Source: Chitinispirillales bacterium (GTDB lineage Bacteria > Fibrobacterota > Chitinivibrionia > Chitinivibrionales > Chitinispirillaceae). Taken from it: a DNA stretch of 64,000 nt. A model generated the notes under the pieces. That model saw only the letters and a program-made list of their open reading frames with translations. It had not been told where the DNA came from and ran no database searches. A program made the translations under genes and the position numbers. Below are positions 25,086 to 48,418 of this stretch, piece by piece (position 1 is the stretch's first letter; each line of letters begins with the position of its first letter). Where the stretch lies: assembly GCA_031281485.1 (NCBI GenBank), contig JAITFI010000073.1, forward strand, positions 35,349 through 99,348, in the 5' to 3' direction.

Positions 25086-26207
25086 ATGAAACGTTGTACA
25101 GCTATTTTCATTACGGTCGCTACGGCAGTTCTCTTTCTTTCGAGTTGCAAGCAATCCGGTTCCTCGTCTTCGAGCGGCGCGCTGATAGGCATCGCGATGC
25201 CGGAGACGCAGGTTACGCATTGGGTAAAAGACGGAGCCACGCTAAAGGCGGAGGCGGAGAAGCGCGGGTACCGTGCGGAGGTTCAATTCGCGGACGCCGA
25301 CCAAGCCATACAGAATCGGCAGATTCAGACTTTGATCGGATTGGACGCCAAGCTGCTGATCGTCGGTAGCGTAAGCGCGGAGGTCGCCCCCGCGATCGCC
25401 GAAACGGCGAAAAAGAATGTTTCGGTTATCGCTTTCGACAGGCTGATCCAAAACTCGGCGGACTACGACTACTTCATCACTTTCAACGGCGACAAGATCG
25501 GGGAGCTGCAGGGGCGGAGCCTCGCGGAGGCGCTCGGACTTGAAAACGCCGACCCAAAAGCGCCAAAGAGCGTCGCCTTGTTCGCCGGTTCGATAACCGA
25601 TGCCAACGCCTTCTCTTTCTACGACGGCGCTATGGGCGTTCTCAACCCGTATATAGAGAAAGGCGTTCTTAAAGTAGTAGGGCCGTACCCCAAGACCTCA
25701 GCCGACAAAGAGGCTTTCGAGAAGATCGCCACCGGTTGGCAGAGTTCAACTGCCAAGGAACTTATGAGCGCCCTCCTGAAAAACGAGGCGAAGAACCTGA
25801 CATTGGACGCCGTGCTCTCCCCCAACGACAACATAGCCCGCGCCATAATAGAGGTCTGCCGGACTGACGCGAAATACAAGAACAAACTGCCGTTAATCAC
25901 CGGTCTGGACGGGGAGTTCGAGTCAATGATGCTCGTGAAGAGCGGGGATCAGCTCTGCACCGTATTCAAAAACACCACGCAGCTCTCCGAAGCGGCGATC
26001 ATCCTCGCCGATCAAATACTGAAAGGGCAAACGCCGGACATCCCCGGCGCATACTTGGCCGAGGGGCCGCAAGCGAAGCTGGGGGACACGGGGAAGAAAA
26101 CCGTGAAGACGTATTTGATAGACCCGATCTTGATAACTAAAGAGAATATAAACATTCCGGTCGACGCTGGGTTCTATACGGCTTCGGAGAGCGAAGCTTT
26201 GAAATAG
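25086..26207 (+). CDS. sugar ABC transporter substrate-binding lipoprotein (XylF/periplasmic-binding type)
   Basis: 'LFLSSCKQS' lipobox; 'IGIAMPETQVTHWVKDGATLKAEAEKRGYRAEVQFADADQAIQNRQIQTLI'; 'ITGLDGEFESMMLVKSGDQLCTVFKN'. Confidence 0.88.
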   Translation: MKRCTAIFITVATAVLFLSSCKQSGSSSSSGALIGIAMPETQVTHWVKDGATLKAEAEKRGYRAEVQFADADQAIQNRQIQTLIGLDAKLLIVGSVSAEVAPAIAETAKKNVSVIAFDRLIQNSADYDYFITFNGDKIGELQGRSLAEALGLENADPKAPKSVALFAGSITDANAFSFYDGAMGVLNPYIEKGVLKVVGPYPKTSADKEAFEKIATGWQSSTAKELMSALLKNEAKNLTLDAVLSPNDNIARAIIEVCRTDAKYKNKLPLITGLDGEFESMMLVKSGDQLCTVFKNTTQLSEAAIILADQILKGQTPDIPGAYLAEGPQAKLGDTGKKTVKTYLIDPILITKENINIPVDAGFYTASESEALK

Positions 26208-26327
26208 AGGTTATGAATACCGCCGCAACAGCCTCAACACCGACAAACCGCCGACCCGATTCTGGGACGGCGGTGAATGTGTCCAAAATACCGTCCCCCC
26301 CCCCCCGCGGGCAAGGGGGGACGTGAA

Positions 26328-27032
26328 TCAGGTGTTTTTGACGCAACGCACCGATAAGTAGAGATTTCCCCCCGCATTATTCTCCATCACAAAACCCCCG
26401 TTGTAATCCATACGCCGATAGTAATATCCGCCGCGAGAGTAATCTTCCGTAGCCGTCCACCAAAAGCCTGAGTAGCCGACAGAGGTGAAGGTGTTTTCGT
26501 ATATGCCGCCCGGCAGAGCCGAAAATCCAAAAGCATCATCGCCATCACCGCTTTGGTTCCAACCATCACTCGATTTCAATTTATACCCAGCCTCTCCGCC
26601 GGTACCATATTCGCCGGTACCGCCTGCGGCAATAGCCAAATCTCCCCACTCCCGACGAGACGGTAAGCGCCATCCGGCGGGACAAGCTGTTTGCGCCGTC
26701 GCCAAAGAGTACAACCTTCCATATTCAGTACAATTGTCCGCAATGCTACCATAACACATCGAACCGTTTGATGTCGGAAAGTTCAAATTCTCAGCCATCC
26801 ATCTCTTCCCACCTATTACCACCGTCCTATACTTTTGACCGCCGTAAGTAAGCGTATCATTGTTGCCCCCAGTGTTATTCCCGCCTGTATTGTTTCCGCC
26901 GGTAGTATCCACGCCGATATACCCTCCCCCGACCGACGTATTATTATTCCCGCCGCAACCCAGTACGTATAACGACCCGACTACCGCCGCCGCAACCATT
27001 AACGTCCGTCCCGCACCGATAAATCCTCTCAT
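26328..27032 (-). CDS. FISUMP-domain putative lipoprotein
   Basis: 'LYVLGCGGN' lipobox; 'YRTVVIGGKRWMAENLNFPTSNGSMCYGS...GRLYSLATAQTACPAGWRLPSRREW...FSALPGGIYE...FWWTATE...SVRCVKNT'. Confidence 0.9.
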   Translation of the reverse strand: MRGFIGAGRTLMVAAAVVGSLYVLGCGGNNNTSVGGGYIGVDTTGGNNTGGNNTGGNNDTLTYGGQKYRTVVIGGKRWMAENLNFPTSNGSMCYGSIADNCTEYGRLYSLATAQTACPAGWRLPSRREWGDLAIAAGGTGEYGTGGEAGYKLKSSDGWNQSGDGDDAFGFSALPGGIYENTFTSVGYSGFWWTATEDYSRGGYYYRRMDYNGGFVMENNAGGNLYLSVRCVKNT

Positions 27033-45328: not shown

Positions 45329-45774
45329 AGCCCCGCCCCTTCTGTTGATGATGAAAAGTTAAGATGAAAAGCATCCTTATTAAATATATATAATTAAATA
45401 TACATAAAAAAATGCAAAAAAAGTTGTTTTTTGTCTATTTGTTGAATATAAATTCCAAATGAATAGGTTTTTTGCCGCGAGTTACGGTCTTGCCGGATAT
45501 ATAGGAGCGGGCGCTGGTTTGGGCGGCGGTCAACTAATGAACCTTATTATTCGAGCCGCCGCTAAAAAAAATATAAAAAAAGTTGCTTTTTGCGCTGGGC
45601 ATACTTATATTAACTATAGGGTATAGCTACCGTAGCGCGTGAGGGTATACCGACCATATTCGTAGGATTGATAATGCCAACCACCGAGCCGCCTCGATGG
45701 GAATTTTGTGCTTGTGTCTTTTTTTCGCCTATTTTATTTAATCTATTAAGCATATTTAGGAGGGGTTATGATAT

Positions 45775-46911
45775 ATGAAAAACTACTTGAGAGAATTCCT
45801 ATTGGGGGGGGGGGGGCTACTCGCTCTGCTCCTTACGGTCAGTTGTTCGTTAAACTCCGACTCACCTGACCGCGAAGGCGGGTTCGTCCTGCCGACGCTC
45901 GGCGCGGACGTGGAGATTGTTTCGGCCCCGGCGCCCGATGTCGCCGATGCGGAGCCTGCCGAGTCGAAGTACGCCGACATGAACAATTGGGGCACTTTCA
46001 ACAACGCGAGAGGCACCAAAAGCGTGGATATGTTCCTTGTCTACCCCACCGCCATCAGCAGTTCAGACCCAGAAGACTACCCGTACGCGCGTATAGATCA
46101 CTCCGGTATGCGCAACAGCGCTAATCAGTGGTACCGCGGCATACTTTCTATATGCACCACGTACACCAACGCCTATATGCCCTTCTACCGTCAGGCGAAC
46201 GTGTTCGCGTCGAAGCCCAGCGGGTACACCGGCCCGGGGCCGAATATGAAAAGCGGGACCGGCACCGACGACGTGTTCGAGGCCTTCCAGTACTACCTCG
46301 ACAATGTAAACAAGGGCGAGCGGCCCTTCATAATCCTCGGCTTCTCGCAAGGCGCGGCTGTCGTGACGGAGCTTGCCTCCAGGTTTCTGAGTGACCACCC
46401 CGAACACAACGCGAGGCACATAGCCTCCTACGCCGCCGGCATGGGGACGCAGGCGAGCGAAGTAAGGAGGAATCCGGCGCTCAGTTTCTCCCAAAGTTAC
46501 AACGACCTCGGCGTAATCGTCTCGTGGAACACGGTCTCGCAGAAGTGCGTGGACGACAACATCTCTTGGTTGCAAGCGGTGGGCGCGCCGGGCGGCCCGG
46601 TAACGAACCCCATCACGTGGACGACCGACACCAGAGACGTCCCCGCCTCGGAAAACAAGAGATCTATGGCAAACGGCCGGTTGACCGCCAACTATGTCGG
46701 CGCTCAGGTCAACAACACCAAGGGCGTCCTGATCGTGAGACCGGGTCCGAACGTGACGCTGCCCGAACCGTCGTCGTCTATGAGCTGGCACGGACAGGAT
46801 ATCCCGTTCTTCTACGAGTCGGTATTGGACAATATCAGGGATAGGATTGCCGCGTATCGGGCGGCCAATGGTAGCGGGACGGGGGTAAAGTCAAATTCTT
46901 TAAAAAATTAA
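45775..46911 (+). CDS. DUF3089-family (alpha/beta hydrolase fold) lipoprotein
   Basis: Lipobox 'LLTVSCSLN'; 'VDMFLVYPTAISSSDPEDYPYARIDHSGMRNSANQWYRGILSICTTYTNAYMPFYRQANVF', 'ERPFIILGFSQGAAVVTELASRFL'. Confidence 0.8.
   Translation: MKNYLREFLLGGGGLLALLLTVSCSLNSDSPDREGGFVLPTLGADVEIVSAPAPDVADAEPAESKYADMNNWGTFNNARGTKSVDMFLVYPTAISSSDPEDYPYARIDHSGMRNSANQWYRGILSICTTYTNAYMPFYRQANVFASKPSGYTGPGPNMKSGTGTDDVFEAFQYYLDNVNKGERPFIILGFSQGAAVVTELASRFLSDHPEHNARHIASYAAGMGTQASEVRRNPALSFSQSYNDLGVIVSWNTVSQKCVDDNISWLQAVGAPGGPVTNPITWTTDTRDVPASENKRSMANGRLTANYVGAQVNNTKGVLIVRPGPNVTLPEPSSSMSWHGQDIPFFYESVLDNIRDRIAAYRAANGSGTGVKSNSLKN
45804..45816. repeat. poly(G)13 homopolymer inside the DUF3089 signal peptide
   Basis: ATTGGGGGGGGGGGGGCTA counted directly. 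Confidence 0.95.
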
Positions 46912-47166
46912 AGTCAAAGTCTTTAAAGTCAAATTCTTTAAATCTTTTTTAGACGAAGCCCCTTCGGGGCTTCATAGGCTATGCGGGGCTAAACCCCGCA
47001 TAGATAAAATCAAAACAATGTAGTGGCGGCGACGCGAAGCGGCGCATGTTTTGACGTTATCTTTTGACTTTGATTCTATATATGCGGGGTTTAGCCCCGC
47101 ATATTCTATGAAAGGGCGCGTTTACGCGCCCTTTCGTCTGAAAAAGATTTAAAAGACTTTGACTTT
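46887..47166. repeat. Composite palindromic intergenic element, copy 4 (core 46951-47139)
   Basis: GAAGCCCCTTCGGGGCTTC - GCGGGGCTAAACCCCGC - spacer with extra GCGACGCGAAGCGGCGCATGT - GCGGGGTTTAGCCCCGC - GAAAGGGCGCGTTTACGCGCCCTTTC. Confidence 0.92.
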
Positions 47167-47173
47167 AAAAGCG

Positions 47174-48418
47174 ATGGAGGCATTTATCTTGACAATAACC
47201 GCCATTTTAGGCACAAGCTCAGTAACAAAAATCGTTTTCGCTCTCGGTATGCTGATGGTGATCGGCGACTTCGCCGCCACGCTCTTCGCCATAGCTTACC
47301 GGCGGTTTATCTACAAGAAGCGTCGCGCCTCCTACGACCCGTCTTACACCCCGCCGTGCAGCATCGTGGTGCCTTGTAAGGGCATACCCAAGAATTTCGG
47401 CGACAATCTGCGCGGGTTCTTGCAGTTCGATTACCCCGATTACGAGGTCATATACGTTACCGAGAGCGCCGCCGACGCCGCGGTGCCGGAGATCGAAAAG
47501 ATACTCTCCGAGGACAAACGCGCCAAATTTACCGTCGCGGGCCTGTCAACGCGGTGCGCTCAGAAGAACCACAACATGCTCGCCGCGCTGCGCGAGGCGC
47601 GCTCAGACTCTGAGGTCTTCGTCTTCGCCGACTCCGACATCAAGCCGGGGGTTCGCTGGCTTCGGGAGATCGTGCTGCCGCTTCAGAGCGGCAAGATCTC
47701 CGTGACGACCGGCTTCCGCTGGCTCCTTTCCGCCAAAGGCACCATAGGCGAACTCTGCCACGCCTACGTCAACATATTCATCTACACCTGCTTCTGCGCC
47801 GCGAGCTACCTCGGCGGGGTGGGCCTTTGGGGCGGCACTATGGCCGTCAGGCGGAAGGATTACGTCGAGCTCGGCGTTGAAAAAGCGTGGAGCCGCGCCG
47901 CCGTGGACGACATGAGCCTCTCTACGCTCGTGCTGAAAAACAGGCGCAAAGCCGTGGTCGTAGCCGACTGCATCACGACGACCGACGACCTCTTGCCCAC
48001 CGTCGGCGCGACAATCGCGTGGTTCGAGCGGCAGATCATGTACCTGAAATCCTACCAGCGCGTTCTGTGGGTCTTCCCGGCGCTGCCGATGGCGCTGCTT
48101 GCCGGCTGGCTCATACTGCTCTTGCCCTACGCGGCCTTCGCGCCGTATGTTACGGCCGAGCCGACCACCTTCATGGAACAAGGCGGCGGCGCGTCGCTGA
48201 TATTCATCCTCGGCCACACCGCCGTGGCCATGCTCTACCCCGCGCTCGGCAAGATGCCCTTCTTCGGGCGTTTTTTGCTCTTCCAACCCGTACTGAGGCT
48301 GGCGCAGATGGTATCGTATTTTAAGACGTGGACCACAAGAACGATAACGTGGGCCGGGATAAAGTACAAGTTAGACTTCAAAGGCGACGTTCGGGAGATA
48401 GACAGGGGGTCTGCTTAA
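47174..48418 (+). CDS. family 2 glycosyltransferase, ceramide glucosyltransferase-like
   Basis: 'PPCSIVVPCKGIPKNFGDNLRGFLQFDYPDYEVIYVTES', 'VFVFADSDIKPGVRWLREIV', 'LWGGTMAVRRKDY'; TM segments. Confidence 0.85.
   Translation: MEAFILTITAILGTSSVTKIVFALGMLMVIGDFAATLFAIAYRRFIYKKRRASYDPSYTPPCSIVVPCKGIPKNFGDNLRGFLQFDYPDYEVIYVTESAADAAVPEIEKILSEDKRAKFTVAGLSTRCAQKNHNMLAALREARSDSEVFVFADSDIKPGVRWLREIVLPLQSGKISVTTGFRWLLSAKGTIGELCHAYVNIFIYTCFCAASYLGGVGLWGGTMAVRRKDYVELGVEKAWSRAAVDDMSLSTLVLKNRRKAVVVADCITTTDDLLPTVGATIAWFERQIMYLKSYQRVLWVFPALPMALLAGWLILLLPYAAFAPYVTAEPTTFMEQGGGASLIFILGHTAVAMLYPALGKMPFFGRFLLFQPVLRLAQMVSYFKTWTTRTITWAGIKYKLDFKGDVREIDRGSA

Follow-up and report, generated by a model that had tools for sequence, protein, structure and literature searches.

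A poly-G tract in the signal peptide of a DUF3089 lipoprotein gene as a candidate phase-variable switch in a Chitinispirillales bacterium

The analysed window, a stretch of 64,000 nucleotides from a Chitinispirillales bacterium (Fibrobacterota), contains a gene for a predicted DUF3089 lipoprotein whose signal peptide is encoded across thirteen consecutive G (Table 1). We interpret this tract, with moderate confidence, as a simple-sequence contingency locus at which slipped-strand mispairing would turn translation ON and OFF, length variation in cells and selection being the parts of this reading that we infer. The run is the longest homopolymer of the window, and from a GC content of 0.553 we estimate that chance would give the 2.28-Mb genome only about 0.2 G/C runs of at least 13; the tract thus exceeds chance expectation, as a repeat in a contingency gene should. 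An earlier note on this DNA had reported the thirteen G, placed the resulting GGGG inside the signal peptide and translated the slips of one base by hand. Re-reading the sequence gave exactly this position and count, the translation put the glycines where the note had them, and the computed slips ended at the same early stops: 12 G lead to MKNYLREFLLGGGGYSLCSLRSVVR, with a stop after 25 codons, and 14 G to MKNYLREFLLGGGGATRSAPYGQLFVKLRLT, with a stop after 31 codons. In simulated tract lengths the full-length protein was obtained at 7, 10, 13, 16 and 19 G, while the remaining lengths from 8 to 18 G gave peptides of about 24-32 aa, i.e., the protein is cut short by a slip of one or two bases, and three-base steps preserve the frame. 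The length of 13 comes from one assembly, the single metagenome-assembled genome (MAG) of the species.

Table 1. Features of the DUF3089 locus, with positions counted from the first nucleotide of the window.
Feature	Position	Strand	Remark	Basis
Shine-Dalgarno-like AGGAGGGG	45758-45765	+	9 nt before ATG 45775	sequence
Second ATG, out of frame	45768-45770	+		computed
DUF3089 alpha/beta-hydrolase lipoprotein gene (predicted)	45775-46911	+	378 aa, intact ORF	Pfam, AlphaFold2
Signal peptide MKNYLREFLLGGGGLLALLLTVS	45775-45843	+		translation, by inspection
G13 tract	45804-45816	+	encodes Gly11-Gly14, frame-critical	sequence, computed
Lipobox Cys24 codon	45844-45846	+	predicted lipidated N-terminus	translation
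Ser191 codon	46345-46347	+	putative catalytic Ser, in GFSQG	Ser invariant 44/44
His339 codon	46789-46791	+	putative catalytic His	His invariant 44/44

According to the proposed mechanism, mispairing during replication would alter the number of G, and tract lengths of 3n+1 (7, 10, 13, 16, 19) would yield a full-length, exported and lipid-anchored DUF3089 esterase. Every other length would yield one of the peptides of about 24-32 aa, so that cells would switch translation ON and OFF; in-frame changes would alter only the number of glycines, because the tract is situated within the hydrophobic core of the signal peptide, which is cleaved off. The Shine-Dalgarno-like sequence also lies 2 nt ahead of the out-of-frame ATG, from which computed translation enters the DUF3089 frame at 9, 12, 15 or 18 G, and a third expression state starting there is a possible candidate. 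A different use of the tract would be slippage during transcription or translation, by which every cell would contain a fixed mixture of frames that sets the expression level instead of an inherited ON or OFF state. Long homopolymers cause polymerase slippage, and entry into the DUF3089 frame from this ATG at 12 or 15 G would suit such an arrangement; however, the described signals for expression slippage are mostly A/T runs, and the genus-wide set of tracts presented below would be left unexplained, which leaves this explanation a slim chance. A scan of 45330-47180 for promoters and terminators gave no more matches than expected by chance. On the 3' side of the gene, several GC-rich palindromes are found at 46954-47110, comprising GAAGCCCCTTCGGGGCTTC and two elements of the form TATGCGGGG..CCCCGCATA.

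The protein matches Pfam PF11288 (DUF3089) over residues 84-263 with an E-value of 1.3e-29 and 103.6 bits against a curated cut-off of 23.4. By inspection, the signal peptide has K2 and R6 in the n-region, a hydrophobic core around the glycines (FLL-GGGG-LLALLL) and a lipobox LLTVS-C, in which Thr at -3 is less common; a cysteine is present in this column in 26 of the 44 aligned sequences, that is the DUF3089 protein and 43 relatives. A single-sequence fold reached a pLDDT of 31 and was unusable; it was replaced by an AlphaFold2 model based on the 44-member alignment, with a mean pLDDT of 82. The best matches of this model among solved structures are esterases, lipases and cutinases, with a probability of 1.00 and low TM-scores, and a phmmer search against PDB sequences returned nothing significant. 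To date, the characterised DUF3089 proteins have been esterases of family XV (Est10, PMC4431682). Ser191, His339 and the model supply the GXSXG nucleophile and the His in an alpha/beta-hydrolase fold that distinguish this family, which the authors of Est10 would limit to Est10, Est5S, EstZ3 and EstGK1 (PMC4431682). The window protein shares the DUF3089 domain, the serine in GXSXG, the signal peptide and the alpha/beta-hydrolase fold with Est10 and Est5S from the bovine rumen, but has GFSQG instead of GHSQG and additionally a putative lipobox and the poly-G tract (PMC4431682). Taken together, the signal peptide with its lipobox, the invariant Ser and His, the model and the characterised DUF3089 esterases indicate that the product is likely a lipid-anchored esterase, its activity and location being predictions. 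Every anatomical detail of the phase-variable lipoprotein suggested earlier that could be checked was recovered, whereas the designation as a surface protein goes back to the lipobox and is to be taken as predicted from it. With an intact ORF and conserved catalytic residues, nothing obvious marks the gene as a pseudogene, and its codon usage is typical of its own genome.

A DUF3089 homologue (38% identity) is present in a single further genome, from a different genus, among the 24 of the family. This protein (L062, identical to L211, from a Chitinispirillales MAG) begins with a lipoprotein signal of the usual kind that has no tract. The gene was not found in the rest of the genus (seven genomes), gene calling around the orthologues of the adjoining glycosyltransferase gave no DUF3089 gene, and a plasmid collection gave no match. 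Beyond the family, the nearest matches are from Clostridia MAGs (L209 and L210), whose isolate names look like those of termite-gut MAG sets, as far as can be inferred from such names. No G/C run of at least 9 was present in any of the 72 loci fetched by similarity to the DUF3089 protein. As these loci lack a run and the signal of the family relative is ordinary, the protein does not require the tract, and its absence from relatives suggests that it is probably a recent, lineage-specific feature. A search across the family with the pattern ATGA-N(5,35)-G9 returned mostly chance matches or runs at contig ends, and those that were read contained no second clear case in a signal peptide.

This patchy distribution bears on the main rival explanation, in which the lineage gains and keeps long poly-G/C runs for mutational reasons and G13 is a hypermutable but unselected tract that landed in a dispensable gene. 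Loss of the frame would then be occasional decay and not an adaptive switch. The absence of the gene from the rest of the genus and from the neighbourhoods of the glycosyltransferase orthologues is in line with this, as is the abundance of long runs across the genus, most of them intergenic. However, an intact ORF with genome-typical codon usage and invariant catalytic residues argues against this explanation, and the runs themselves are non-random, with a strong polarity and an excess ahead of genes for exported proteins. We regard an unselected tract as unlikely, albeit with a share of the probability well above that of the other alternatives.

The contingency-locus reading draws much of its support from the genome as a whole, a MAG of 2.28 Mb that is 68% complete, with a GC content of 0.553. 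Its FISUMP proteins and its relatedness to the Chitinispirillales MAG (G023) indicate that it belongs to Fibrobacterota and probably to Chitinispirillales. The census, made by pattern searches and from fetched stretches, yielded 36 G/C runs of at least 9 and 30 of at least 11, for which only about 2 are expected from the composition, so that long poly-G is a genome-wide feature. According to our own gene calls, all internal runs of at least 10 are intergenic except the one in the DUF3089 gene; it is the only one of the long internal runs to fall in a confidently called gene, with about 77% of the examined sequence being coding. The slipped-strand arrangement that the earlier note had regarded as classic is, in the light of the genus-wide runs, the most likely reading, but the tract on which the note was built turns out to be the exception among long tracts that are otherwise intergenic. 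The other long homopolymer of the window, and its sole long intergenic run, is a C12 at 26295-26306, located between a convergent pair of genes for a substrate-binding protein-like product (25086-26207) and a FISUMP-like protein (26328-27032, reverse strand); it breaks the polarity rule described below. Loss of mismatch repair as the cause of the tracts was rejected, as mutS is present in six of the eight genomes of the genus; in the 68% complete genome studied here it was not found.

Long poly-G runs often form contig ends, as seen in contigs C9, C57 and C62 of this genome and in many contigs of four others of the genomes searched (G007 and G010-G012). In the own genome, 7 of the 30 runs of at least 11 lie within 150 nt of a contig end (p about 2e-7), which may result either from length heterogeneity or from poor sequencing of poly-G. 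The enrichment, together with some end clusters that look artefactual (C9, C57), is what could be put forward for a sequencing or assembly artefact, i.e., a true run that is shorter or a poly-G error of two-colour chemistry. The G13 run, however, is located 18 kb within a contig of 99 kb and is flanked by unique sequence on either side, whereas dark-cycle poly-G continues to the end of the read, and an artefact cannot produce a polarity of runs relative to genes. An artefact is thus unlikely as the explanation of this internal run, with a chance slimmer still than that of slippage during expression.

Sister species likewise have G runs within coding sequence, in no fewer than four further genes, and two or three of these are out of frame as assembled. 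In one genome (G011), a gene whose C-terminal part resembles a barrel (L139) is split by G14 and a methyltransferase gene (L129) by G17, the halves being in different frames in both cases, and another G14 stands directly ahead of the likely start of a TetR-type regulator (L130); these three labels were assigned by inspection. In a second genome (G009), a SagB-type nitroreductase contains an in-frame G14 (L175), and G13 separates an upstream ATG from the signal peptide of an OmpA-domain protein, which is out of frame from that ATG (L176). The sense strand carries the G in all six coding tracts counted. A search for orthologues of L139 gave only weak matches in one other genome, among which no uninterrupted orthologue was seen. 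Since frameshifts at assembled homopolymers may also be errors of length, these tracts are support and not proof.

The intergenic runs show a pattern of their own. Both sides of each run of at least 10 were compared in five genomes of the genus, using a dicodon gene caller trained on the genome. Of 40 genes on the C side, 38 start away from the run, compared with 10 of 42 on the G side (p = 9.5e-12), with a median distance of 242 nt between tract and start codon (10-90%: 132-376). For shorter C runs the p-values were 1 (7-9), 0.02 (6) and 0.1 (5), and A/T runs of at least 7 had no polarity bias in the same comparison. A crude signal-peptide test was passed by 29 of the 37 genes downstream of tracts as opposed to 163 of 396 others (p = 1.7e-5), and the genes behind the tracts include those of FISUMP proteins, a TDE1717-type outer-membrane family and a CsgG-like protein. 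Because simple scripts on MAGs were used to find gene starts and signal peptides, some tracts near contig ends did not enter the statistics and paralogous regions are only partly independent of each other, these p-values somewhat overstate the evidence. Sense poly-C runs of 10-28 with near-perfect polarity were observed in G000 (the own genome) and G009-G012 (loci L101-L188). Paralogous tract regions have flanks that are about 75-90% identical and tract lengths of 11-19, and related genes in G011 have tracts of their own of 11, 16 or 28. At six loci (L031, L032, L045, L056, L057 and L068) the tract is part of a dispersed intergenic block of up to 400 nt with about 75-85% identity, e.g., TTGACAAAATGAGAAATA-Cn followed by a GGGGGCTGTATGCCCC hairpin. 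The polarity is absent in the genomes searched from two other genera of the family (G005 and G020). In a genome from another family of the phylum (G095) there is a hint of C-side polarity, 8/9 versus 3/9 (p=0.05); signal peptides occur in 7 of 8, and the distances are shorter, at 34-178 nt (even-numbered loci L312-L340). We suggest tentatively, and less firmly than the switch at the DUF3089 gene, that the genus has homopolymer switches at many loci: some 20-30 poly-C tracts in each genome, which would tune the promoters of genes, mostly for exported proteins, that begin about 240 nt further on, and a few poly-G tracts within genes such as DUF3089.

In weighing the switch at the DUF3089 gene, the tract, the frames, the intact ORF, the genus-wide excess and the coding tracts in sister species count in its favour. 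On the other side, the gene is ON as assembled, for which the chance is one in three, mononucleotide slippage may be repaired given mutS in the genus, and, the other long tracts being intergenic, G13 may be a stray one in a gene that is dispensable and missing from the seven other genomes of the genus.

Simple-sequence contingency loci are already known as a class, of which the DUF3089 locus is a further candidate member. The closest systems are hmbR and hpuAB of Neisseria meningitidis (PMC3786947) and genes for surface structures of Campylobacter jejuni (PMC8437040), which have long poly-G in the ORF where slips of one base truncate the protein, as at the DUF3089 gene. Here, however, the candidate switch concerns an esterase-type lipoprotein with the tract in the core of its signal peptide, in a presumably non-pathogenic member of the Fibrobacterota. 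The other tracts of the genus, and not the one in the DUF3089 gene, resemble promoter homopolymers outside the ORF, which are situated upstream of genes for surface proteins in Treponema pallidum (tprE/G/J, tp0126 and tprL; PMC7864442) and are promoter-associated in Helicobacter pylori sabA (PMC4081817); they differ in being C in the sense direction, with a median distance to the start codon of 242 nt, and are candidate promoter tracts judging from their position. In titles, abstracts and term counts, no report was found of phase variation in Fibrobacteres or of slipped-strand phase variation in termite-gut bacteria, which is weak evidence of absence.

Of all these observations, the polarity-locked poly-C upstream of genes for exported proteins most deserves further work. 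Dozens of such polarity-locked homopolymers, together with the poly-G within genes, would be testable with existing metagenome reads. If the proposed reading is true, it would mean large-scale phase variation by simple sequence repeats in an uncultured, presumably non-pathogenic Fibrobacterota symbiont, and it would point to possible random switching of an enzyme that may have plant or microbial esters as substrates, in a bacterium that is probably gut-associated.
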